A stretch of DNA of 64,000 nt from Thermonema rossianum DSM 10300 (GCF_000426825.1 NZ_AUGC01000005.1:1-64000), one strand, 5' to 3'; shown: positions 38,262 to 49,246, numbered from the stretch's first letter. The notes: generated by a model from the letters alone, not told the origin. Made by a program: numbers and translations.

Positions 38262-38293
38262 AAAAAAAGACACCTTGCAAGGTGTCTTTTTTT
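38262..38293. terminator. Perfect bidirectional terminator
   Basis: A 32-base perfect palindrome: seven A, then GACACCTT and its complement, then seven T. It ends both DUF2071 and the convergent CHAT operon. Confidence 0.9.
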
Positions 38294-38313: not shown

Positions 38314-40521
38314 TTATGGTTTTTGAAAGGGATAGTAAAAATCAAGCTCGCTGTCTATGATAAGGTGCAGGCTTTCGGAGGGGTTGAAGCGGAATGCCTG
38401 GAATTTCCATGTACCCATGCTCCCCAATAAGTGGATGGCCTTATCGGAGGCTTTATAAACTTGATAAACAGCCAATGGTTGCTTGGAAGGGTAGTAGTTA
38501 CGGCGGGTGATATTGCCTAATTTGGAGCTGTATTTTACAGCAAACACATTGGTGTGGTGTGCCAAATTATTGACCCGGCTTACTGCTTTTTCCCCATCGG
38601 GGAAGCTGATTTCGCTGAAATTGCCGATGACCACATAGCCACGTTCTACCGGTACGAGGTTCACCACATTGCCTAAAAGACGAAACTCCTGTTGCCAGTT
38701 AAGCTGCCCGTTGCTTGCTTTGGCTTCTATGAGCAGAACTTTTTCATTAGCGGTAGCCGGGTCGAAGAGGGCTTGCCCTTTGGCAAGTAATGTCCAATAG
38801 CCAAAAACATCATTGTAGCGAATAAAGCGCGGGCAGTCAGTAAAAGGAAGGGGGACCTTTTCAATGCGCTTGCCTGCATTGCTAAATCGTTCTATGGCAG
38901 CTTTTTGTATGCTATAAGGACCCGTGGCGCAGGCAACGGCGGTTACCAGGCAGCCGTCTTCGGTGAGGGTCAGTGAGGTGTAAGCAGTGGAGTTTTGTGC
39001 TTCACTTTCTTTTTCTTGGTGCATCCATACAACCTTGCCTTCCGATATTTTTGCCACGAAACCGGTCAGTTGGTCATTGGCTGCGCGACGGAAGCCGCAG
39101 AGATAATAATTGCCTGCACCGTCTTTTACACTTTCAGCCACGACCCATTCGCCTTCTTTTACCTCGTCAAGTGGGCGCCAATTGGGGGCAGTAGGCAAGG
39201 GTACATTTTCGTAAGAAGTGACCGGCATGCTTTCCAGCAGGCGGTTGATTTGGTCTTTTACCTCTGTCTCCAGCCGGCGTACCTCTTGATTTATCCAAGC
39301 ATCTTCTTGTGACAGGGCCTGGCGCAAGGTGTTGAGTGAAGTATAGCGGCTATTCAATATGGTTTCATACTTTTTAAAGTTTTTTTCATTGGCTGCAGCC
39401 AATGAGGCAGATAGCGCTTCTCTGGCTTTTCCCCCATAGAAAAGCAGTTCGCTGAATTGCTGTGCTTCTTCGCGTGCATCTAAATTGGTTTCGAGCTTGG
39501 CAATTTGCTCTGCTTGTGCATAGGCAGATTTGTGTGTATAATATTCTATTAAGTTGGATATGAGTGAGTTGTAATCATAGCGGTTCAGTTTCAGCAACAG
39601 TGGGCGATCTATTTCATAACTTTGCTTGTTGTCGGCAGCTTGTATGGCCTCTTTAAAGGCGGCCGCCAGCGACTGTTTGAGTGGTTTTATTTCTTTTTGA
39701 ATATTTTCCACGGTTTGCCTTGCCCACTGTGCATAATTCCACAGTTGAATGTCGGGGCGCAGAAAGTCTACGAAAGGCTCCACGCCATCTATGCGGAAAT
39801 CCACAATAGGGCGCACCGTATATCTTTGGTTGTATCCTTCAAGCGGATATTGGTCGAGTGCCTGGCGGTAGCGATCGAGGTAATAAACAGTGGAGTCATA
39901 GTGCAAAGCCAGCCGGTTGAGTGTCTCGATCACGTTTTCATCGGCCAGTATAAGCAGCTCTTTGTAGGTATAATACTGTTCGGTGAGGCCGTTATAAAGA
40001 CGCAGGCTTGCGTCGTAGTGTTCTACGGCTTTTCCAAAATGCCGGAGGATGGTGCTTAGGTTTTCTTTGAGCCGGCGATAATGAGCTATTTTTTGCTCAA
40101 TGACAGGCTTCACCTCGCTTATTTCTATTTTGGGCTTTCCGCTGGCTTTGTCCTCTTCGTCGAAAAAATCCTCATAATACTCTGCATTTTTGCGCAGTTC
40201 TTTTTCGGTAAGGCGCTTATCGAACTCCGAGAAATAGTAAATGCAACTATCGGCATAGCGCATGACGATATGCCCTTGAAGCAGCGGGTCGAAGCGGTTG
40301 GCGCGCTGTTCGCTGATGCGTGCCAACTGATAGTAGGCATTGATGGCATCGGGCTCTTTTTGAAGGTAAATGTGTAGCATGCGGTAGGCTTGCAAGTAAT
40401 TTCCTTCCTGTATTAAGGGGTAAATGTCGCGGCTGTATTTAATCTTTTGGCCATAAGCCGGCGCCAGGCTTGCGCAACACAATAGCAACAACAACCAATA
40501 TTTATAGATGATTTGTTTCAT
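38314..40521 (-). CDS. Exported TPR-like and beta-propeller-like protein of the CHAT operon
   Basis: A 735-residue protein, not recognised as a named family. Signal peptide 1-24 (APAYG before QK). Residues about 30-110 resemble TPR helices (LIQEGNYLQAYRMLHIYLQKEPDAINAYYQLARI). The middle (110-450) is charged helix. The C-terminal 280 residues are beta-rich with repeated strand-turn blocks (GNYYLCGF, DGCLVTAVA, GYVVIGNF), loosely like a propeller. It is the last gene of the operon, 24 bp after the PD40-OmpA gene. Likely periplasmic, perhaps holding the other two products. Similar TPR-plus-propeller layouts occur in T9SS-associated proteins such as PorW and PorE, but I cannot call an orthologue. 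Confidence 0.75.
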   Translation of the reverse strand: MKQIIYKYWLLLLLCCASLAPAYGQKIKYSRDIYPLIQEGNYLQAYRMLHIYLQKEPDAINAYYQLARISEQRANRFDPLLQGHIVMRYADSCIYYFSEFDKRLTEKELRKNAEYYEDFFDEEDKASGKPKIEISEVKPVIEQKIAHYRRLKENLSTILRHFGKAVEHYDASLRLYNGLTEQYYTYKELLILADENVIETLNRLALHYDSTVYYLDRYRQALDQYPLEGYNQRYTVRPIVDFRIDGVEPFVDFLRPDIQLWNYAQWARQTVENIQKEIKPLKQSLAAAFKEAIQAADNKQSYEIDRPLLLKLNRYDYNSLISNLIEYYTHKSAYAQAEQIAKLETNLDAREEAQQFSELLFYGGKAREALSASLAAANEKNFKKYETILNSRYTSLNTLRQALSQEDAWINQEVRRLETEVKDQINRLLESMPVTSYENVPLPTAPNWRPLDEVKEGEWVVAESVKDGAGNYYLCGFRRAANDQLTGFVAKISEGKVVWMHQEKESEAQNSTAYTSLTLTEDGCLVTAVACATGPYSIQKAAIERFSNAGKRIEKVPLPFTDCPRFIRYNDVFGYWTLLAKGQALFDPATANEKVLLIEAKASNGQLNWQQEFRLLGNVVNLVPVERGYVVIGNFSEISFPDGEKAVSRVNNLAHHTNVFAVKYSSKLGNITRRNYYPSKQPLAVYQVYKASDKAIHLLGSMGTWKFQAFRFNPSESLHLIIDSELDFYYPFQKP

Positions 40522-40545
40522 AGTTTACAGTTTTTAAAGAGGGCT

Positions 40546-42573
40546 TTAAATAGCAATTACAATCAATTCACAACGCCGGTTCTTTGCGCGGTTTTCGTCT
40601 GAGTCATTGGGTACTATGGGCTGAGACTCGCCATAACCTTTGGGAACCATGCGGTCTTCGGGAATACCAAATTTTTTCAGATAATTGAACACACTTTGTG
40701 CACGGGCTTGCGATAATCGTTGATTGAAAGCTTCCGAGCCTTTGTCGTCAGTATGAGCCGCCAACTCTATCTTAAGGGTAGGATTGCGGCGCATCAGTTC
40801 TATTACTTTTTTCAGTTCCCGCTCCGAAGCATCGGAAAGCTCGGCAGAGCCTGTTTCAAAGTAGATGTTGTTGAGTGTGAGCTTGGTGCCTATTTTTAGT
40901 GGTGCCAATTCTATTACTTTCTTTCTGGTAGCATCTTTGGCACTGATTACCGGGTTTTTATCCGAATAGAAAGCATAACCGGCAGGGTTGCGCACCTCCA
41001 GCTCATATTCATCCGATTCCCGGATATGCACTTTGTAATAGCCGGGTGTATTGCTGCTGTTTTCGTCGAGCGTAATGACCTCATCACGGCTGCGGTTCAC
41101 CAAAACCACCGTAAAGGGCAAACCTTCTCCTGTTTCAAGGTCTTTAACTACAATCTCATATTCTTTGGTTTCCGGACGCAAAATAGCATCTTTCTCTACC
41201 ACATTGTAACGAACCTTCCGGCTAAGGTCAATGACAAAGCTTGTGTCTATATAATTGTCGGCTTGCACTTTGAGCCGGTAGCTTGCGCCAATGGGTAGCT
41301 TGAGGGTGGTTCTGCCATTTTCGGTTTGTTGCCGGGCTATTTGTTGTTCGCCCTCTTGTTTGGTTACCAATATTTGGGCGTTCAGTGGTTCGTAGATGAG
41401 GCGGTCAATGGCGTTGACATGTACGTCTGCCGTGCGGAACAGCTCTATATCGCGTTCAAACTCTTGGTATTTGTCCAGCTTTCGCAGATCGAACTCAAAA
41501 AAATAGACCGTATATCCTTGCTTTTCCACTTCTATGATGTAGCGTTTCCCTTCCGATAGCACAACGGTATAACGCCCGTCAGAGGGGTTGTTTTCCAGGC
41601 GCATAAGCTGCTCTGTGGTTTCGGCATCGTATACATTTACATAAGCACCGATGCCTTGGCGGCTTTCACCATCGCGAATATATCCTTGGATGGTGATGTT
41701 CCGGTTCTGCCGGAACTTTGGCGGAATGGGTACTGTGTAAATGTCGTTGTTGGTTACGAAGTAAAGCAAGTCGCCCGAAGCCGATACGCTGGCAAACTGG
41801 TCTCGTTCGGGGGTGCTGGCAAAGTCCATTAAGACAGGATTGCTCCAGTCGCCTTCTTCGTTACGTCGTGAAAGGTAGAGGTCAAACTCACCGATGCCGC
41901 CCTCCCTTATAGAGGAAAATATGAGGGTTACATTGTCGGACATGATACGTGGGGCTTTTTCGCAGCCTAAGTTGATAGGCATGGGCAGCGGGTAAGGCTT
42001 TTGCCATTGTCCGTCTTTGCCCTTTTCGGCAGCGAAAATACGGTAGCAAATAGCATCGCCACGGGTAAGGATGTCGCCATCTTCGTCGGTGCTTTCCCGG
42101 ATGAAGTAGAGCGTTTTGCCATCGGCAGAAATACAAGGGAAGCCTTCGTAAGCAGGCGTGTTGATGACCGGACCAATATTTTTAGGCTTACTCCACCGGT
42201 CGCCAATGCGCCGGCTGTAGTAAATGTCTTCACGCCCGTATCCGTCTTTGAAAGAAGCAAAGAAGTAGAGCGTGTTGCCATCGTAACTGATGGAAGGTCC
42301 GCCGATGAGGTCGGTATCGCCTCCATACATATTGACCGAATCGATGGGTTCGGGGTTGGTCCAGCGCCCATCACGCAGATAGCTTACATACAGCTCCCAC
42401 TTGCCGTTGTTCCGGTTGGTTTCGAAAATCATGGTCCGTCCATCGGCGCTTACGGTGGGGGCGTACTCTATGGCTGCTGTATTGATGGGTGGGGGTAGCG
42501 GTTGCTTTTGCGCCCGCAGCCATGTGGGCAGACACAGCAGACAAAGTAGAAAAAGATAAATGTTCTTGTTCAT
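40546..42573 (-). CDS. PD40-repeat OmpA-family outer-membrane protein
   Basis: A 675-residue protein with signal peptide (1-21, WLRAQ). Residues about 28-290 contain WD40-like PD40 beta repeats (TVSADGRTMIFETNR, SISYDGNTLYFFAS, CISADGKTLYFIRE, SVSASGDLLYFVTN). A carboxypeptidase-regulatory-like domain follows (about 295-370, TIQGYIRDGESRQGIGAYV) with further beta domains. The C-terminal OmpA domain (about 560-675) shows IYFETGSAELS, LAAHTDDKGS, LSQARAQSVFNYL and NRRCELIV, so it binds peptidoglycan. This architecture is like T9SS PorE. It is the middle gene between the CHAT protein (40-bp gap) and the TPR-like protein (24-bp gap), and could tether the CHAT protein to the cell wall. Confidence 0.9.
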   Translation of the reverse strand: MNKNIYLFLLCLLCLPTWLRAQKQPLPPPINTAAIEYAPTVSADGRTMIFETNRNNGKWELYVSYLRDGRWTNPEPIDSVNMYGGDTDLIGGPSISYDGNTLYFFASFKDGYGREDIYYSRRIGDRWSKPKNIGPVINTPAYEGFPCISADGKTLYFIRESTDEDGDILTRGDAICYRIFAAEKGKDGQWQKPYPLPMPINLGCEKAPRIMSDNVTLIFSSIREGGIGEFDLYLSRRNEEGDWSNPVLMDFASTPERDQFASVSASGDLLYFVTNNDIYTVPIPPKFRQNRNITIQGYIRDGESRQGIGAYVNVYDAETTEQLMRLENNPSDGRYTVVLSEGKRYIIEVEKQGYTVYFFEFDLRKLDKYQEFERDIELFRTADVHVNAIDRLIYEPLNAQILVTKQEGEQQIARQQTENGRTTLKLPIGASYRLKVQADNYIDTSFVIDLSRKVRYNVVEKDAILRPETKEYEIVVKDLETGEGLPFTVVLVNRSRDEVITLDENSSNTPGYYKVHIRESDEYELEVRNPAGYAFYSDKNPVISAKDATRKKVIELAPLKIGTKLTLNNIYFETGSAELSDASERELKKVIELMRRNPTLKIELAAHTDDKGSEAFNQRLSQARAQSVFNYLKKFGIPEDRMVPKGYGESQPIVPNDSDENRAKNRRCELIVIAI

Positions 42574-42613
42574 GTTTCAAGATGGTTTTTAGTGTTTATA
42601 CAAGACCGGAATA

Positions 42614-45600
42614 TTATTCAATACCTGTAATGACAAAGCTTCCCCAATAGTAAGGGTGCGGGTACTCTTTGCGCAAGCGCTCTTGTGCCTGACGGAAGGC
42701 AAGATGCGTATTGCCATTTTTCAGATATGATTCATAAAAGTAGCTCATAAGCTTTTGGGTGGCTTCATCGTTGACCTTGAAAAGGCTCATGACAACGCTG
42801 CGTGCGCCGGCCACCAAGAAAGCGCGCTGCAGTCCATAGACGCCTTCGCCTATTTGTACGTCACCGAGTCCCGTTTCACAGGCCGAAAGCACTACCAGAC
42901 GGGTATTGTCCAAGGGCAGGTTTTGTGCTTCATAAGCAGTAAGCACACCGTCGGCTGTATTGATGGCGGCCGCGCCTTCGCTAAGCAAGCGCCCTCCGTC
43001 TTTGAGCAGCAGGCCGGAGCGCAGCATAGGGTCATTGGCCAACAGGTTTTCAAAAGAGGTATTTTCCGAATAGTTGTCACTACCGGGGGCAAAAAAACCG
43101 TGGGTTGCAAAGTGAAGGATGCGTGGTGACTGCTTGAGTTGTTTAATGCTTTGCTCGGTGGCATTGGCGCCCAAGAGCGTGAGAATTGGCCAGTTGAATG
43201 ACTTCAGCAGTTGAGCAATGAGGCGGGCTTCCAGCTCGGCGCCGGGCAATGGGGGTACTTCTCCGCCAAAATCCGGATTGCCCACAATAAGCACCTGTCC
43301 GGCAGTGGTTTTTTGCTCTATGGGCGCCGGACTGCGTTTCAGCAGCTCTTTACTGTTGCTGATGTAGCGTATGTCGTAGGTATCGAAGACATAGTTGTCT
43401 TTCAACGGGCGGTAAAAAGCGGCTATGTTGATTTGATTATATACGCCATCGGGTGACACAAACACACGTTTGACCGTGGCGGGCAGGCGTTCTTCGATAT
43501 TCTGCCAGAATTGCTCATAAGAGAAGCGGTCGCGCAGCTTGAAGCGGGTGGCGTTGCGGTAATAGTTGTAGTAGCGGTTTTCGAGTGTCTTGCCTTCCTT
43601 CAAGACTACCGGCACAGGGCGCTTGCCTGCAGGCAGCAGGATGTAGGCTACATAATAAACCGAGTCGGTAAATGCATTTTGCTGTGGGTCGAAGTGTTGC
43701 ACCCGGATGAGCTCGATGGCTGCCTCGTCGGGCTGTAGTTGCTTTTGTACTTGTTGCCAATTGACTTTTTCTACTTTCAATTTATTGAAAAGGGCAGCGC
43801 GCTCGGACAACTGCTTCTCCAGCCGGTTGATTTCCGACTCCAGGGCCAGTACATTCACTCCACTGCGTAGTTGGTCTTCTTTGCTCAAGTTGAGCAGGGC
43901 TGCCAACTGCTCTTTTCTTCTCACCCATTGGTTGTAAAGGGCTGTCAAGGTGCTGTCTTGGCTTTGGGTCAGCTGTTGCCGGGTTTTTTGTCCGGCATTG
44001 AGCAGAATGGCCTTGGTAGTCAGAGTATAGTTGAGCAGGGTTTCGTGCAGGGGGCTGCCCGCAGGACGTCCTGTAGCCAATGATTTGAACAGTTGGAAGT
44101 GGGGCTGTATGCTTGCCCAATATTTGGCTTTTTCGCGCTCGCTCAGGCTGGGGAAATAGCGCTCGATAAATAAAAGGTAGCCGTCCAGGCTCTGTTGGTA
44201 AAGTGCGGCTGCCGAGTCCACTTGCCCTTTGACATAAGCCAGGCGCGCCAAATAACTGATTTGACGGACATAGGCAGGGTGTTGCTCGCCAAAGGCACTG
44301 GCATAAATGTCTCTTGCTTCTTGAAAATAGGCGCGGGCGTCATCATAAGCCCCTTCGCTTAGGCTTACTTCGCCCAATAGGCTTTTGACATAAGCCACTT
44401 GGTGGTGTTTTTTACCAAACTTATTGCCGTAAATTTCTTCGGCTTGCTTTAAGAGCCGGACAGCATCGCTGTAGCGGCGCTCGTTTTTATAAAGAACGGC
44501 AAGCGAGCTTATCAGTTGGGCATAGGTGGGGTGTTGTTTGTCGAAAGTGCTTGCTGCCAAGTCGATGGCTTCCTTTAAAACGGCTTCGGTTTCGGCATAG
44601 CGTTCAGGGTGCAGGCTATACTCTATGAGGGCTGCTTCGCTCAATATATCGGCCATTTTAATATGCAGCTTGCCCAGTTTGTCTATTTGTATGCGCCGAA
44701 TCAGCTCGGCTTCGGCTTCGGCTTTTTCAATGTCGCCCAATTCTATATGTATTTTGGCTTGTTGTGTAAGGACATCGGCATACTTGAGTGACTGCTTGCC
44801 GTAGCTTTTTTCTGCAATATCGAGCGCTGTGTAAATATGTTTTTGTGCGTCGGTATAGTTGCCTTGCAGGATGAGCACGCTTGCCATGGCTTGATGGGGG
44901 CGGATGAGACGGCGGCTGTTTGCCCCGTATTTTTTTTCTTTTTTGTCCAGAACGTCTGTAAGCAGCCGCAAGGTGCTTTCAAACTCACCGGTGCGGGCAT
45001 ACACCTCGGCAAGCTCTTCTACAGAACCGGCTTTGAGTGCCGTATAGTCGGTAGGAATGCCTTGTTTTTTTTGCTTTTTGGCTGCTTGGCGCTCTACGGC
45101 AGTAATGGTGGCATTGGCTTGGCTTAGCAATTGGGTGGCTTTGTTATAGTCGCTAATGGCAGCATATATTTTAGCTACTTGCATCAGTGCCAAGGCATAA
45201 TCAACACTTTCCGGGTCACCATTCTTTTCTATGATTTGCAGGGCATCCTGTGCTTCTTCACCGGCTTGTTTGAACTCCCCGTTTTCTTGCAGTATTTCAG
45301 CAAAAAGCAGTTTGGCGCGTGCCACTTTGATATGCCGTTCGCCATAGCGCCGGTTGAGTTGCTCTACGGTCTGCTGCATGAGGGCTTTGGCACGTGCGTA
45401 ACGGTCGTTGAGTAAAAAGAATTCGGCATATAAGCGGTGGTAGGCAGGCGAGAGGTAGTGACCAAAATACATTTTCTCTTCGAAAAGTTCTACCGGCACT
45501 TCTTTTTCAAATATATTTTTGGCTTTTAGAAAATCTTCGCCATAATTGACGTGGAAGCCGGCCCAATCAACTTGGGCAAGGCGGTAGGCAAAGGTTCCGG

Positions 45601-46807
45601 GGATGAGGCGCTGCTGCTGGGCTTCCAAATAGCGTTGGTTCAGCTCCTCTGCTTTTTGTATGGATACGTCGTTTTGCACGTAGAGTTCCGTCCATACGCG
45701 CAGCAAGTCGGCGTAGATAGGATGATCTTTGGGAAGCTTTTCGTTTTGGGTGATGCTAAGCAGGATGGCTTCGGCTTCTTTGAAGCGCCGGTCACGGATG
45801 GCGCGCTCCATCTCAATGATTTGTGCTCTGAAATAATAGGGGGACTGCTTGCCGTAATATTGTTCTGCGACGCGCTTCATCTCGCGTATGTTGGCGTTTT
45901 GCACGAACCGCAGTTGCCGCCGCTTTACGCTATTGCGTGCAATGCCTTCGAGCAGGTGCAAATAGGTTTTACTTGACTCCTTAAAAGCAAAAGCATAATA
46001 GAGCTGGGCACGCTGTGCCATCTTATAATACGAGGTGGCTTTGGCGTAATTCTCCTGTGCATCATAATTCTCGCCGAAGGCAATCAGGTGTGCGGCATAA
46101 TCCGGGTCGGTAACACCCACCAAGCGGCGTACTGTGAGGTTGTAAGTCTTCAGCAGCGAGTCAGCTTTTTCGTAATCGCCATACACGGTTTGGGCGCGTG
46201 CTTGCAGGGTGAGGTCGCGTGCCAGTTGCCGTTTTACAAAGCGCTTTTCCGGACCTGACAGCTTGCGGGCACTGCCTTCTGCCTGTTGGCGGCGCTCCTT
46301 GGCTGCTTCCTGTGCCAATGCATAGGCTTGCGCAGCTTCTTGGCTTTCCAGCAGAAGCCATGCTTGCATTTCTTTGTAAAAAGTCTTCACCAAAGGGTCT
46401 TGAATGCGGCTGCTGTCGATGGCTGTCAACAGCTGATGCGCACGCCTGAAATTGCCGTATTCAAGATAAGTATGGGTTAACAATAGTTGTCCCAAGGCAA
46501 AGCTGTCGCCTTGGTCTTTTGCTTTTTCCCGTATTTTACCGCTTTCTTCAACGGCCTTTTGCATGTCTTCGAAACGTGCCAAGGCTTCCAGGTTGCGGGC
46601 TTGAAGGGCTTGGAGCCAAGCTCTTTGAATATCACTTTTGGCACGGCTTAGTTTCTTTTCTGCCAATGCATGGGCACGCTTATAGTCGCCCATGCGGTAG
46701 CTTTTTTCAATATTTTGCGTTAGCTTTAAGTATTGCCTCAATACCTGCGCCTCGGAAGGCAGGCTGAGAAGCAATATAAACAAGATGGCAACCCCCAATC
46801 GTTTCAT
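42614..46807 (-). CDS. Exported TPR-CHAT caspase-like protease
   Basis: A 1397-residue protein with signal peptide (1-20, PSEA before QV). Residues about 25-930 are TPR or TPR-like helices with several clear units (LAEVYARTGEFESTLRLL, AEAVLKEAIDLAASTF-type repeats). A coiled segment (930-1030) precedes the C-terminal CHAT domain. The predicted catalytic pair is His1236 (HFATHGFF) and Cys1310 (VLSACETG), with the family GEGVYGLQRAFLVAGARSVV block after it. CHAT proteins are caspase-like peptidases usually activated by their TPR partner surfaces. An N-terminal export signal puts this one in the periplasm, which is unusual for well-studied CHAT enzymes. It is the first gene of a three-gene operon with PD40-OmpA and TPR-like proteins. 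Confidence 0.92.
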   Translation of the reverse strand: MKRLGVAILFILLLSLPSEAQVLRQYLKLTQNIEKSYRMGDYKRAHALAEKKLSRAKSDIQRAWLQALQARNLEALARFEDMQKAVEESGKIREKAKDQGDSFALGQLLLTHTYLEYGNFRRAHQLLTAIDSSRIQDPLVKTFYKEMQAWLLLESQEAAQAYALAQEAAKERRQQAEGSARKLSGPEKRFVKRQLARDLTLQARAQTVYGDYEKADSLLKTYNLTVRRLVGVTDPDYAAHLIAFGENYDAQENYAKATSYYKMAQRAQLYYAFAFKESSKTYLHLLEGIARNSVKRRQLRFVQNANIREMKRVAEQYYGKQSPYYFRAQIIEMERAIRDRRFKEAEAILLSITQNEKLPKDHPIYADLLRVWTELYVQNDVSIQKAEELNQRYLEAQQQRLIPGTFAYRLAQVDWAGFHVNYGEDFLKAKNIFEKEVPVELFEEKMYFGHYLSPAYHRLYAEFFLLNDRYARAKALMQQTVEQLNRRYGERHIKVARAKLLFAEILQENGEFKQAGEEAQDALQIIEKNGDPESVDYALALMQVAKIYAAISDYNKATQLLSQANATITAVERQAAKKQKKQGIPTDYTALKAGSVEELAEVYARTGEFESTLRLLTDVLDKKEKKYGANSRRLIRPHQAMASVLILQGNYTDAQKHIYTALDIAEKSYGKQSLKYADVLTQQAKIHIELGDIEKAEAEAELIRRIQIDKLGKLHIKMADILSEAALIEYSLHPERYAETEAVLKEAIDLAASTFDKQHPTYAQLISSLAVLYKNERRYSDAVRLLKQAEEIYGNKFGKKHHQVAYVKSLLGEVSLSEGAYDDARAYFQEARDIYASAFGEQHPAYVRQISYLARLAYVKGQVDSAAALYQQSLDGYLLFIERYFPSLSEREKAKYWASIQPHFQLFKSLATGRPAGSPLHETLLNYTLTTKAILLNAGQKTRQQLTQSQDSTLTALYNQWVRRKEQLAALLNLSKEDQLRSGVNVLALESEINRLEKQLSERAALFNKLKVEKVNWQQVQKQLQPDEAAIELIRVQHFDPQQNAFTDSVYYVAYILLPAGKRPVPVVLKEGKTLENRYYNYYRNATRFKLRDRFSYEQFWQNIEERLPATVKRVFVSPDGVYNQINIAAFYRPLKDNYVFDTYDIRYISNSKELLKRSPAPIEQKTTAGQVLIVGNPDFGGEVPPLPGAELEARLIAQLLKSFNWPILTLLGANATEQSIKQLKQSPRILHFATHGFFAPGSDNYSENTSFENLLANDPMLRSGLLLKDGGRLLSEGAAAINTADGVLTAYEAQNLPLDNTRLVVLSACETGLGDVQIGEGVYGLQRAFLVAGARSVVMSLFKVNDEATQKLMSYFYESYLKNGNTHLAFRQAQERLRKEYPHPYYWGSFVITGIE

Positions 46808-46919
46808 AAGCTTTCTTGTGTAAGTTTTTTCATATATTATGTAAGTTTACAAAAATTGCACCATTTTAGCACACTCTTTGCGTCAGGATAAACCGAAAAC
46901 CAAAATTATTGAAAAGCGT

Positions 46920-47321
46920 ATGCGTGGATTGTATGTATTGTTGTTGTCTGTTTGTGTCTCGGCGTTTTCATTTTCACAGCCTTCGGTCATAGGCAAGTGG
47001 CGTTTGGTAGAAATCCGTATGCACCAAATTGTAATTACCGAGGCAGAAATGGCGGCAAAGCGTTTGGGGAATGTGATGGTATTTGCAGAAGGCGGCATAT
47101 GTCAGGTATATCCGGACAATCCGAAGGCCAAAGTACTGACCAGCCGTTGGTATTGGGACCGTCATCCGGAAAAGCCCGCCCTTATCATAGAAGCCCGTGA
47201 CCCGATGGGCAAAGTCGTGAAGCAGCGTTTTGAAGTAGAGAAGCCCAACCGCAAAACACTGATTCTGCACATAGGCGAAGGCATCGACAAAGAAAGTTAT
47301 GTGTACCGGGCGCTAAAATAG
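46920..47321 (+). CDS. Small exported lipocalin-like protein
   Basis: A 133-residue protein with signal peptide (1 to about 20, FSFSQ). The mature part opens with PSVIGKWRLVEIRM, the GKWRL strand common in bacterial lipocalin-like proteins, and continues as a small beta-barrel-like sequence (NVMVFAEGGICQVYPD, KTLILHIGEG). Start ATG at 46920; an in-frame TTG upstream at 46878 is less likely. It is divergent from the CHAT operon, and its last 9 bases overlap the end of the DUF72 gene on the other strand. Confidence 0.78.
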   Translation: MRGLYVLLLSVCVSAFSFSQPSVIGKWRLVEIRMHQIVITEAEMAAKRLGNVMVFAEGGICQVYPDNPKAKVLTSRWYWDRHPEKPALIIEARDPMGKVVKQRFEVEKPNRKTLILHIGEGIDKESYVYRALK

Positions 47322-48212
47322 AGATTGTTGTATGTCGAAGCGTTGAGGTACTTTTAAATCCAAACCAAGCTTTTGATTCAACTGACAGATGAGGTAGGCT
47401 GCCAGGTCGGGAGCCTGCACATTGTCCGGTTCATGAACGAAGAAAAACACTTGCTCTATCCCTTGTGCTTGCCAATGTGCCAACCGCTCGACCCACTCGT
47501 CTATGCGGCTGTAATCGGTGGGGTGCAGCCCGTTGCCTACGAAGCGAATCATGGCTGTGGCATTGCATAAGCCCATGTGCAGCACATCGCGCCGCCCGGC
47601 AACGTCTGTAATCACCAGTCCGGCACCATAACTGTGCAGCTTATCGGCTGTTCGTGAGAGGTACTTAAACCAGGAAGCATGCCGGAACTCTATGGAAAGT
47701 GGCAGCTTATCGAAGGGGTAACTATCTAAAAAACGAAGCAAAAACGTAGATTGCCGCGTTGTGAAAGCAGGGGGAAGCTGCATAAAGGGCGTGCCTAAGC
47801 GCTCGCCCAAAGCATCGCAAAAGGCAACAAAGGCTTCTATTTCTTTTTTCAGAAAAGGACCATCCAGCTGATGACTGATGCCTTGGGGCAACTTAGGGCA
47901 AAAACGAAAGCTGCCGGGTGTTTGTTCTACCCATTTTTGAACGGTGGTGCCGCCCGGCAAGGCATAGTGGGTGCTGTTGAGCTCTATGGTATTGAATTGG
48001 CGGCTATAATGCCATAAGTACTTCTGAGAAGGGGTTTGGGGCGGATACCATTTGCCTGCCCACTCTTTTTGTACCCAGATGGGGCAGCCGACAAACCAAC
48101 GAGTAGCTTGCTTGGTTGTGGCTGCCTTCGACAGGTAATAACGGTTAAAGGCAGGGTCGGGGGGGAGTGAAAAATCGATACCACTGATGTCGCTTACTTT
48201 ACCGAACTCCAT
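47313..48212 (-). CDS. DUF72 (YecE-like) protein
   Basis: A 299-residue TIM-barrel protein of the DUF72 family: RWFVGCPIWVQKEWAGKWYPP at the start, FNTIELNSTHYALPGG, FRFCPKLPQGISH and FRHASWF are typical. Biochemical role unknown in the family. It starts only two bases after the gpsA stop, so it is co-transcribed with gpsA. Its 3' end overlaps the 3' end of the lipocalin-like gene by 9 bases, tail to tail. Confidence 0.92.
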   Translation of the reverse strand: MEFGKVSDISGIDFSLPPDPAFNRYYLSKAATTKQATRWFVGCPIWVQKEWAGKWYPPQTPSQKYLWHYSRQFNTIELNSTHYALPGGTTVQKWVEQTPGSFRFCPKLPQGISHQLDGPFLKKEIEAFVAFCDALGERLGTPFMQLPPAFTTRQSTFLLRFLDSYPFDKLPLSIEFRHASWFKYLSRTADKLHSYGAGLVITDVAGRRDVLHMGLCNATAMIRFVGNGLHPTDYSRIDEWVERLAHWQAQGIEQVFFFVHEPDNVQAPDLAAYLICQLNQKLGLDLKVPQRFDIQQSLF

Positions 48213-48214
48213 AC

Positions 48215-49225
48215 CTATTGCAGCTCTGCACGTATTTTTTCAAACACTTTCTTTGCCGGCACTTCTTCATACAGTATTCTGTACACCCCGTTCATGATAG
48301 GGCAAACCACGCCGTGCTTACGGCTGATTTGATAAATGCCCTTGGCAGCATAATAACCTTCGGCTACCATTTTCATTTCCATCTGTGCCGATTTTACACT
48401 ATACCCCCTGCCTATCATGTTGCCAAAGGTGCGGTTGCGGCTAAATTGAGAATAAGCCGTAACCAGCAAATCGCCCAAATAGGCGGTATGAGTCAGTTCA
48501 CGGTGTAGCGGGTAAACCGCATCGATGAGCGCCTTCATTTCACGCAGGGCATTGGCTACCAATACGGCTTGAAAATTGTCGCCAAATCCAAGTCCATGGG
48601 CAATGCCACAACCAATGGCAATGATATTTTTCATGATGGCGCAATATTCCACACCGTAGAGGTCATCGAAGGGGGTGGCTTTCACATAACGGCAGTTCAT
48701 CAACCGGGCAAAGGCTTCGCTGATGGCGAAGTTAAGCGAAGCAATCGTCAGATAGGACTGCCGTTCCAAGGCTATCTCCTCGGCATGGCAGGGACCGGCA
48801 ATGACAGCCATGTTCTCTTCGGCAAGCTCAAACTGCCGGCTTATCCATTGGGTCACCAGCAGGTAGTCTTCGGGAATGACCCCCTTAACCCCCGACACTA
48901 CTTTTTTTGAGGACCAATCGTCGGCGGTGGTAGAAGAAAGCGCTTCCTTAACAAAGGCAGCGGGAATGGCCACCACCACCCAGCGGGCCGGTGCCAGCAC
49001 CTCCCGTATCGAGCTGCTGACTTGTACGACTCGCTCCGGCCGGATTTCCACATCGCTCAAATAGCCGGGGTTGTGCCGGTAAGTGCGTATGTGTTCGGCT
49101 GTTTCCGGGTTGCGCACCCACCAGTGAATGGCTGCCTGCTCGTTTTCCGATAGTATTTTCACAAGGGCGGTAGCCCAGCTCCCACTACCTAAAACGGCGA
49201 TTTCTTGCTTCTGTGTAGTGCTCAT
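48215..49225 (-). CDS. gpsA: NAD(P)-dependent glycerol-3-phosphate dehydrogenase
   Basis: A 336-residue enzyme that reduces dihydroxyacetone phosphate to sn-glycerol-3-phosphate for phospholipid synthesis. The nucleotide motif AVLGSGSWATALVKIL is at about 10-25; VSGVKGV and IAGPCHAEEI are the next family blocks; the catalytic region has YCAIMKNIIAIGCGIAHGLG and a C-terminal TAYSQFSRNRTFG. The start is the ATG at 49225; the frame extends to an in-frame TTG at 49237. It is followed by DUF72 after two bases; a hairpin separates it from tyrS upstream. Confidence 0.95.
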   Translation of the reverse strand: MSTTQKQEIAVLGSGSWATALVKILSENEQAAIHWWVRNPETAEHIRTYRHNPGYLSDVEIRPERVVQVSSSIREVLAPARWVVVAIPAAFVKEALSSTTADDWSSKKVVSGVKGVIPEDYLLVTQWISRQFELAEENMAVIAGPCHAEEIALERQSYLTIASLNFAISEAFARLMNCRYVKATPFDDLYGVEYCAIMKNIIAIGCGIAHGLGFGDNFQAVLVANALREMKALIDAVYPLHRELTHTAYLGDLLVTAYSQFSRNRTFGNMIGRGYSVKSAQMEMKMVAEGYYAAKGIYQISRKHGVVCPIMNGVYRILYEEVPAKKVFEKIRAELQ

Positions 49226-49246
49226 AAGCCTTTTCAAATAGGGTGA

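Follow-up and report, generated by a model that had tools for sequence, protein, structure and literature searches.

An envelope operon with a predicted wall-binding OmpA protein, a propeller protein, and an interchangeable exported CHAT or C14 protease in Thermonema rossianum and related bacteria

Work on bacterial CHAT and C14 caspases has centered mostly on their function inside the cell, where they serve CRISPR, gasdermin, and other defense systems as effectors. The closest solved fold to the protease described here is that of Csx29 in Craspase, an intracellular CRISPR partner that combines TPRs with a C-terminal CHAT domain. HetF of Anabaena, a putative protease tied to cell division, is also composed of TPRs and a CHAT domain (PMC8406250), but its CHAT domain is located on the N-terminal side (residues 1–555), and it has one transmembrane segment and a divisome partner. 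Two further points of comparison are the gingipains (C25), which are exported clan-CD proteases of Bacteroidota, and DdvA (8rw5, 8rot), a transmembrane anti-sigma factor. Likely signal peptides and an operon setting have been noted for some prokaryotic C14 caspases (PMC3501461), and exported caspases as such are therefore not new.

The operon described here is found in a 64,000-nucleotide stretch of Thermonema rossianum DSM 10300 (NZ_AUGC01000005.1:1–64000), the whole of which is referred to as the window. Three genes, all on the minus strand, are arranged in the order CHAT, OmpA, TPRP and are separated by 40 and 24 bases. The first (42614–46807), assigned by ORF call, domain search, and the fold of residues 758–1397, encodes a TPR-CHAT protease of 1397 aa that is predicted to be exported. 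The second (40546–42573) encodes a protein of 675 aa in which ORF call and domain search place a PD40 propeller, a CarboxypepD_reg-like part, and an OmpA domain; it has a signal peptide but lacks a canonical lipobox. The third (38314–40521) encodes a predicted exported protein of 735 aa that comprises a helical domain and a β-propeller by ORF call, domain search, and model, has no named family, and is termed TPRP here for its TPR/propeller content. An intrinsic terminator, GACACCTTGCAAGGTGTC-T7, composed of a strong hairpin and a T-run, is positioned 3′ of the TPRP gene (38262–38286, minus strand), with a convergent gene beyond it. The ORFs and the terminator behind them confirm the single operon that a preliminary description of this DNA had placed at these positions. 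The N termini of all three proteins are signal-peptide-like as judged by eye.

In the CHAT protein, a signal peptide (about residues 1–21) and kinesin-light-chain-like TPRs precede a C-terminal CHAT domain (residues 1097–1395; 42623–43519, minus strand), which matches PF12770 with 219.5 bits against a curated cutoff of 24. The predicted catalytic residues are His1236, in the motif HFATHG (codon 43100–43102, minus strand), and Cys1310, in the motif SACETG (codon 42878–42880, minus strand), which is the sole cysteine of the protein. The His-Cys dyad is invariant across the 72 CHATs examined. By domain and dyad, the protein is a member of the CHAT family, and it is predicted to have protease activity.

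The C-terminal 640 residues of the CHAT protein (758–1397) were modeled with a pLDDT of 86. A structure search with the CHAT part returned Csx29 (Z 26.6, 9.2 Å over 452 residues; Z 25.5, 3.7 Å over 389), separase (Z ∼22), DdvA (Z 19.7, 10.4 Å over 400 residues of the TPR-CHAT model), and gingipain R (Z 17.8). Judged from the model, the protein appears to adopt the TPR-CHAT fold of Csx29; it differs from Csx29 in its signal peptide, its longer TPR arm, and the predicted wall-binding protein encoded in the same operon. DdvA is an anti-sigma protein, and the match to a region of it raises the possibility of an earlier case of an extracytoplasmic CHAT. The gingipains share the clan and the export, but they are T9SS cargo, belong to a different family, and lack an OmpA-TPRP operon. 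The preliminary description had set the exported CHAT against studied CHATs, which are cytoplasmic. The predicted export and the intact dyad hold. The contrast is lessened by the wide occurrence in the order of exported CHATs that stand alone and carry this dyad. Exported CHATs are thus ordinary here; what is new is the conserved module, together with the replacement of CHAT by C14 described below. The genome of the window contains a second exported TPR-CHAT protein of 1391 aa with an intact dyad (L075:5115-9290), which is followed by a metallophosphatase and then dnaA, has a divergent 339-aa OmpA protein two genes away, and is conserved in the sister species (L106).

The architecture of the second protein is reminiscent of PorE, a lipoprotein with its own TPR domain, whose OmpA domain carries the DAP-binding residues D576, N584, and R591 (PMC7192894). 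Both proteins contain a PD40 propeller, a CarboxypepD_reg-like part, and an OmpA domain, and in the OmpA domain of the window protein (residues 571–666; 40576–40863, minus strand), D609, N617, and R624 are spaced like the DAP-binding residues of PorE. This Asp-Asn-Arg pattern is present in 52 of 52 operon-type OmpA proteins (defined below). The window OmpA domain is therefore predicted to grip the wall in the manner of PorE, and its intact binding site agrees with the peptidoglycan binding proposed earlier. Unlike PorE, the window protein has a signal peptide that ends in LRA-QKQ, with no canonical lipobox, and no TPR match. A PD40 propeller and an OmpA domain are also combined in CHU_0125, an outer-membrane integrity protein whose deletion weakens the outer membrane (PMC5891637), but CHU_0125 has its own TPR. 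Assignment to the CHU_0125 family (NF053607) was rejected at 224.6 bits against a cutoff of 620, as was assignment to PorE (NF052230) at 181.3 bits against 600. With this score, no TPR part, and no lipobox, the likeness to PorE pointed out in the preliminary description does not extend to identity.

The resemblance to PorE also bears on the earlier suggestion that the operon is part of the T9SS or of gliding. An accessory of this kind would join a PorE-like scaffold to a protease that processes T9SS cargo, and the genome does contain T9SS cargo signals (33 TIGR04183 matches), and the gingipains, themselves cargo, have a fold like that of the CHAT part. However, the OmpA protein scores far below the PorE cutoff, and at least six further genes in this genome score higher for PorE, although none of them reaches 600. 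Furthermore, the CHAT protein ends with its CHAT domain and carries no T9SS sorting domain, and TPRP is present in only 32 of 341 genomes of the order. This patchy presence disfavors a core role in the T9SS or gliding, and we regard an accessory role as quite improbable.

The AlphaFold2 model of TPRP is confident (mean pLDDT 88) and shows a helical domain (residues 25–430; 39232–40449, minus strand) followed by a β-propeller (residues 433–725; 38347–39225, minus strand). The helical domain is TPR-like only at residues about 29–111, and the remainder is mostly long helices. The propeller is recognizable by structure only; a structure search, in which the helical part was barely covered, returned generic propellers and no functional lead. 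TPRP has no Pfam or NCBIfam match, comparison of its sequence with solved structures gave nothing convincing, and a profile search of 395 genomes across the phylum yielded only trivial partial matches outside the order. TPRP also occurs alone in some genomes. Shorter relatives of ∼600 aa (L155, L157, L158, L161, and L074) match mainly the N-terminal helical half and have no adjoining operon-type OmpA.

The three genes are found intact in the same genus, with identities of 80, 87, and 78%, and the remaining sampled members of the family have CHATs and lack TPRP. The CHAT-OmpA-TPRP order is also observed in one distant family, with gaps near zero. Joint conservation of the genes had been proposed as a check, and the identical order does recur in other families at roughly 20–50% identity, which rules out a chance arrangement. 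The TPRP alignment was too diverse for a degenerate search, and an 85-aa stretch of OmpA was used instead to search the named genomes; because this stretch alone was used, the choice of loci did not depend on the neighboring genes. A profile was made from the operon OmpA proteins, and OmpA proteins that matched it with more than 700 bits were classed as operon-type, giving 39 loci. TPRP is the next gene in 36 of the 36 loci where the contig continues. A CHAT gene is directly upstream of OmpA in 30 of the 39 loci, a C14 gene follows TPRP in six, both are present together in none, and neither is present in three (two at contig ends); the loci are related to each other, and these counts are thus not independent events.

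Hosts of the CHAT type include Marivirga, Marinoscillum, Reichenbachiella, Fulvivirga, Chryseotalea, and Shiella. In Flammeovirga and one Microscillaceae genome, the gene behind OmpA-TPRP instead encodes an exported TPR protein that carries a Peptidase_C14 domain. The motifs SGHGYY and DAC-SG are intact in this C14 partner, and the dyad is kept in 15 of 15 C14 proteins. A strict home-made signal-peptide rule, which misses some real signal peptides, passes 33 of 39 CHATs, 40 of 54 OmpA proteins, 41 of 55 TPRPs, and 12 of 15 C14 proteins versus 251 of 706 other genes; several of the rejected proteins have a truncated start or an obvious signal peptide, and by eye most N termini across the operon proteins resemble signal peptides. 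The replacement of CHAT by C14 is the strongest clue to the nature of the operon and goes beyond what the preliminary description had seen.

Variants of the operon were also observed. Four further loci contain a CHAT-OmpA pair without TPRP, and Chryseotalea (L212 and L239) and Shiella (L222 and L244) have the three-gene operon together with a separate pair of this kind. In some Flammeovirga, an extra exported WD40-C14 caspase of ∼955 aa is encoded directly behind the TPR-C14 protein (L143:3055-5922 and L144:13043-15904). In Flammeovirga-type operons, an exported protein of 510–518 aa is encoded directly upstream of OmpA (L072:6023-7567, with a weak DUF4384 match, and the same place in L142-L144, L185, L204, and L209-L211). 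In Spirosomataceae (L182, L191, and L192), a longer OmpA relative is located behind a TSP_3-repeat protein, with DUF5723 in two of the three, which suggests that this OmpA family also functions in other machines of the envelope. A third type of protease beside OmpA was sought in Spirosomataceae and in L188, an operon-type locus with no adjoining protease, and none was found; DUF5723/TSP_3 proteins, FG-GAP, and other genes are present instead.

The CHAT and C14 families share the caspase fold, and both have established roles in bacterial death or defense. Their replacement of each other in this operon could fit a programmed-lysis or conflict module, in which a wall breach or surface attack would free an exported caspase and lead to death of the cell or disarming of the invader. 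However, PADLOC gave no match for the window CHAT or TPRP, no toxin or pore-former was found in the operons, and the site is predicted to be periplasmic, such that this explanation appears decidedly unlikely. An anti-phage assignment was rejected, with only generic MotB/ZorB matches for the OmpA part and a generic caspase match for the C14 partner. A constitutive protease that acts in envelope maturation or quality control near the wall, with no sensing, would account for the fixed scaffold and wall-binding site, and the separase- and gingipain-like fold of the model would permit sequence-specific processing. The swap of two protease families argues instead, by inference, for regulated use or for a small, shifting set of substrates, and we consider constitutive action unlikely. 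Finally, the TPR and propeller content is scaffold-like, as expected if the three proteins were a structural linker in which CHAT has lost its proteolytic function, but the invariance of the dyads in both protease families renders this highly improbable.

Phylogenetic trees provide a view of how the operon of this genus was assembled. In the CHAT tree, the window CHAT groups with 24 stand-alone exported CHATs, apart from the Cyclobacteriaceae-like operon CHATs, and a more careful tree gives the identical placement. Forcing the operon CHATs together is rejected (p 0.020), and this grouping is seen in 0 of 200 bootstraps. In the OmpA and TPRP trees, the window proteins are sister to the C14-type cassette of Microscillaceae, and forcing the CHAT-type cassettes together is rejected by both (p 0.004 for OmpA and p 0.021 for TPRP). 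In addition, the window CHAT has a positional orthologue in a genome of the same family, in which OmpA-TPRP is missing and the three upstream neighbors are kept (46878–49237; a 147-aa gene on the plus strand and 299-aa and 340-aa genes on the minus strand, with 35, 49, and 60% identity). The 147-aa protein (46878–47321), encoded divergently to the CHAT gene, belongs to no Pfam or NCBIfam family. All three trees reject a single origin of the CHAT-type operon. Most simply, this genus already had the CHAT, and an OmpA-TPRP cassette was added to it in an event distinct from those behind the other CHAT-type operons. It is still conceivable that both proteases were present in an ancestral operon and that losses followed, because the p-values of the CHAT and TPRP trees are moderate and the branch that leads to the window is long.

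Recurrence of the three genes in one order, with the protease swapped in some lineages, makes the operon look like an undescribed envelope protease machine. From what can be read in the sequences, namely the operon, its domains, dyads, wall-binding residues, conservation, and exchange, we infer export across the inner membrane and a physical complex with proteolytic activity. We see roughly equal chances for and against a peptidoglycan-tethered periplasmic protease complex in which OmpA and TPRP form a constant core and the clan-CD protease is interchangeable. The PD40-OmpA protein would hold the wall through its OmpA domain and present its propeller as a platform, and TPRP would bridge or gate through its helical arm and a second propeller. 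The TPR-CHAT protein would act as a caspase-fold cysteine protease, whose TPR arm may dock on the partners or on a substrate. This position would be filled by CHAT in this genus and the Cyclobacteriaceae-like families and by TPR-C14 in Flammeovirga and the Microscillaceae genome. A change in the envelope could then release or activate the protease, and the enzyme would cleave a small set of envelope proteins. The surface-stress or self-recognition role put forward in the preliminary description stands as a hypothesis. A more specific proposal is offered as a tentative possibility: OmpA and TPRP would form a periplasmic sensor anchored in peptidoglycan, and this sensor would arm a protease of the caspase fold, CHAT and C14 having been swapped in evolution. 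Since TPRP also occurs alone and CHAT-OmpA pairs occur without it, the three proteins do not necessarily work only as a set.

No description of such an operon was found in the open-access PMC literature. The analysis names two partner proteins, one of them from an undescribed family, and cultured hosts are available for a substrate search in Flammeovirga, Reichenbachiella, and Marivirga. If true, the sensor-protease reading would represent an extracytoplasmic analogue of the sensor-caspase modules studied inside cells. With two protease families swapped on one predicted wall-binding core, a conserved operon of the envelope would assign caspase-like proteases a definite extracytoplasmic location.
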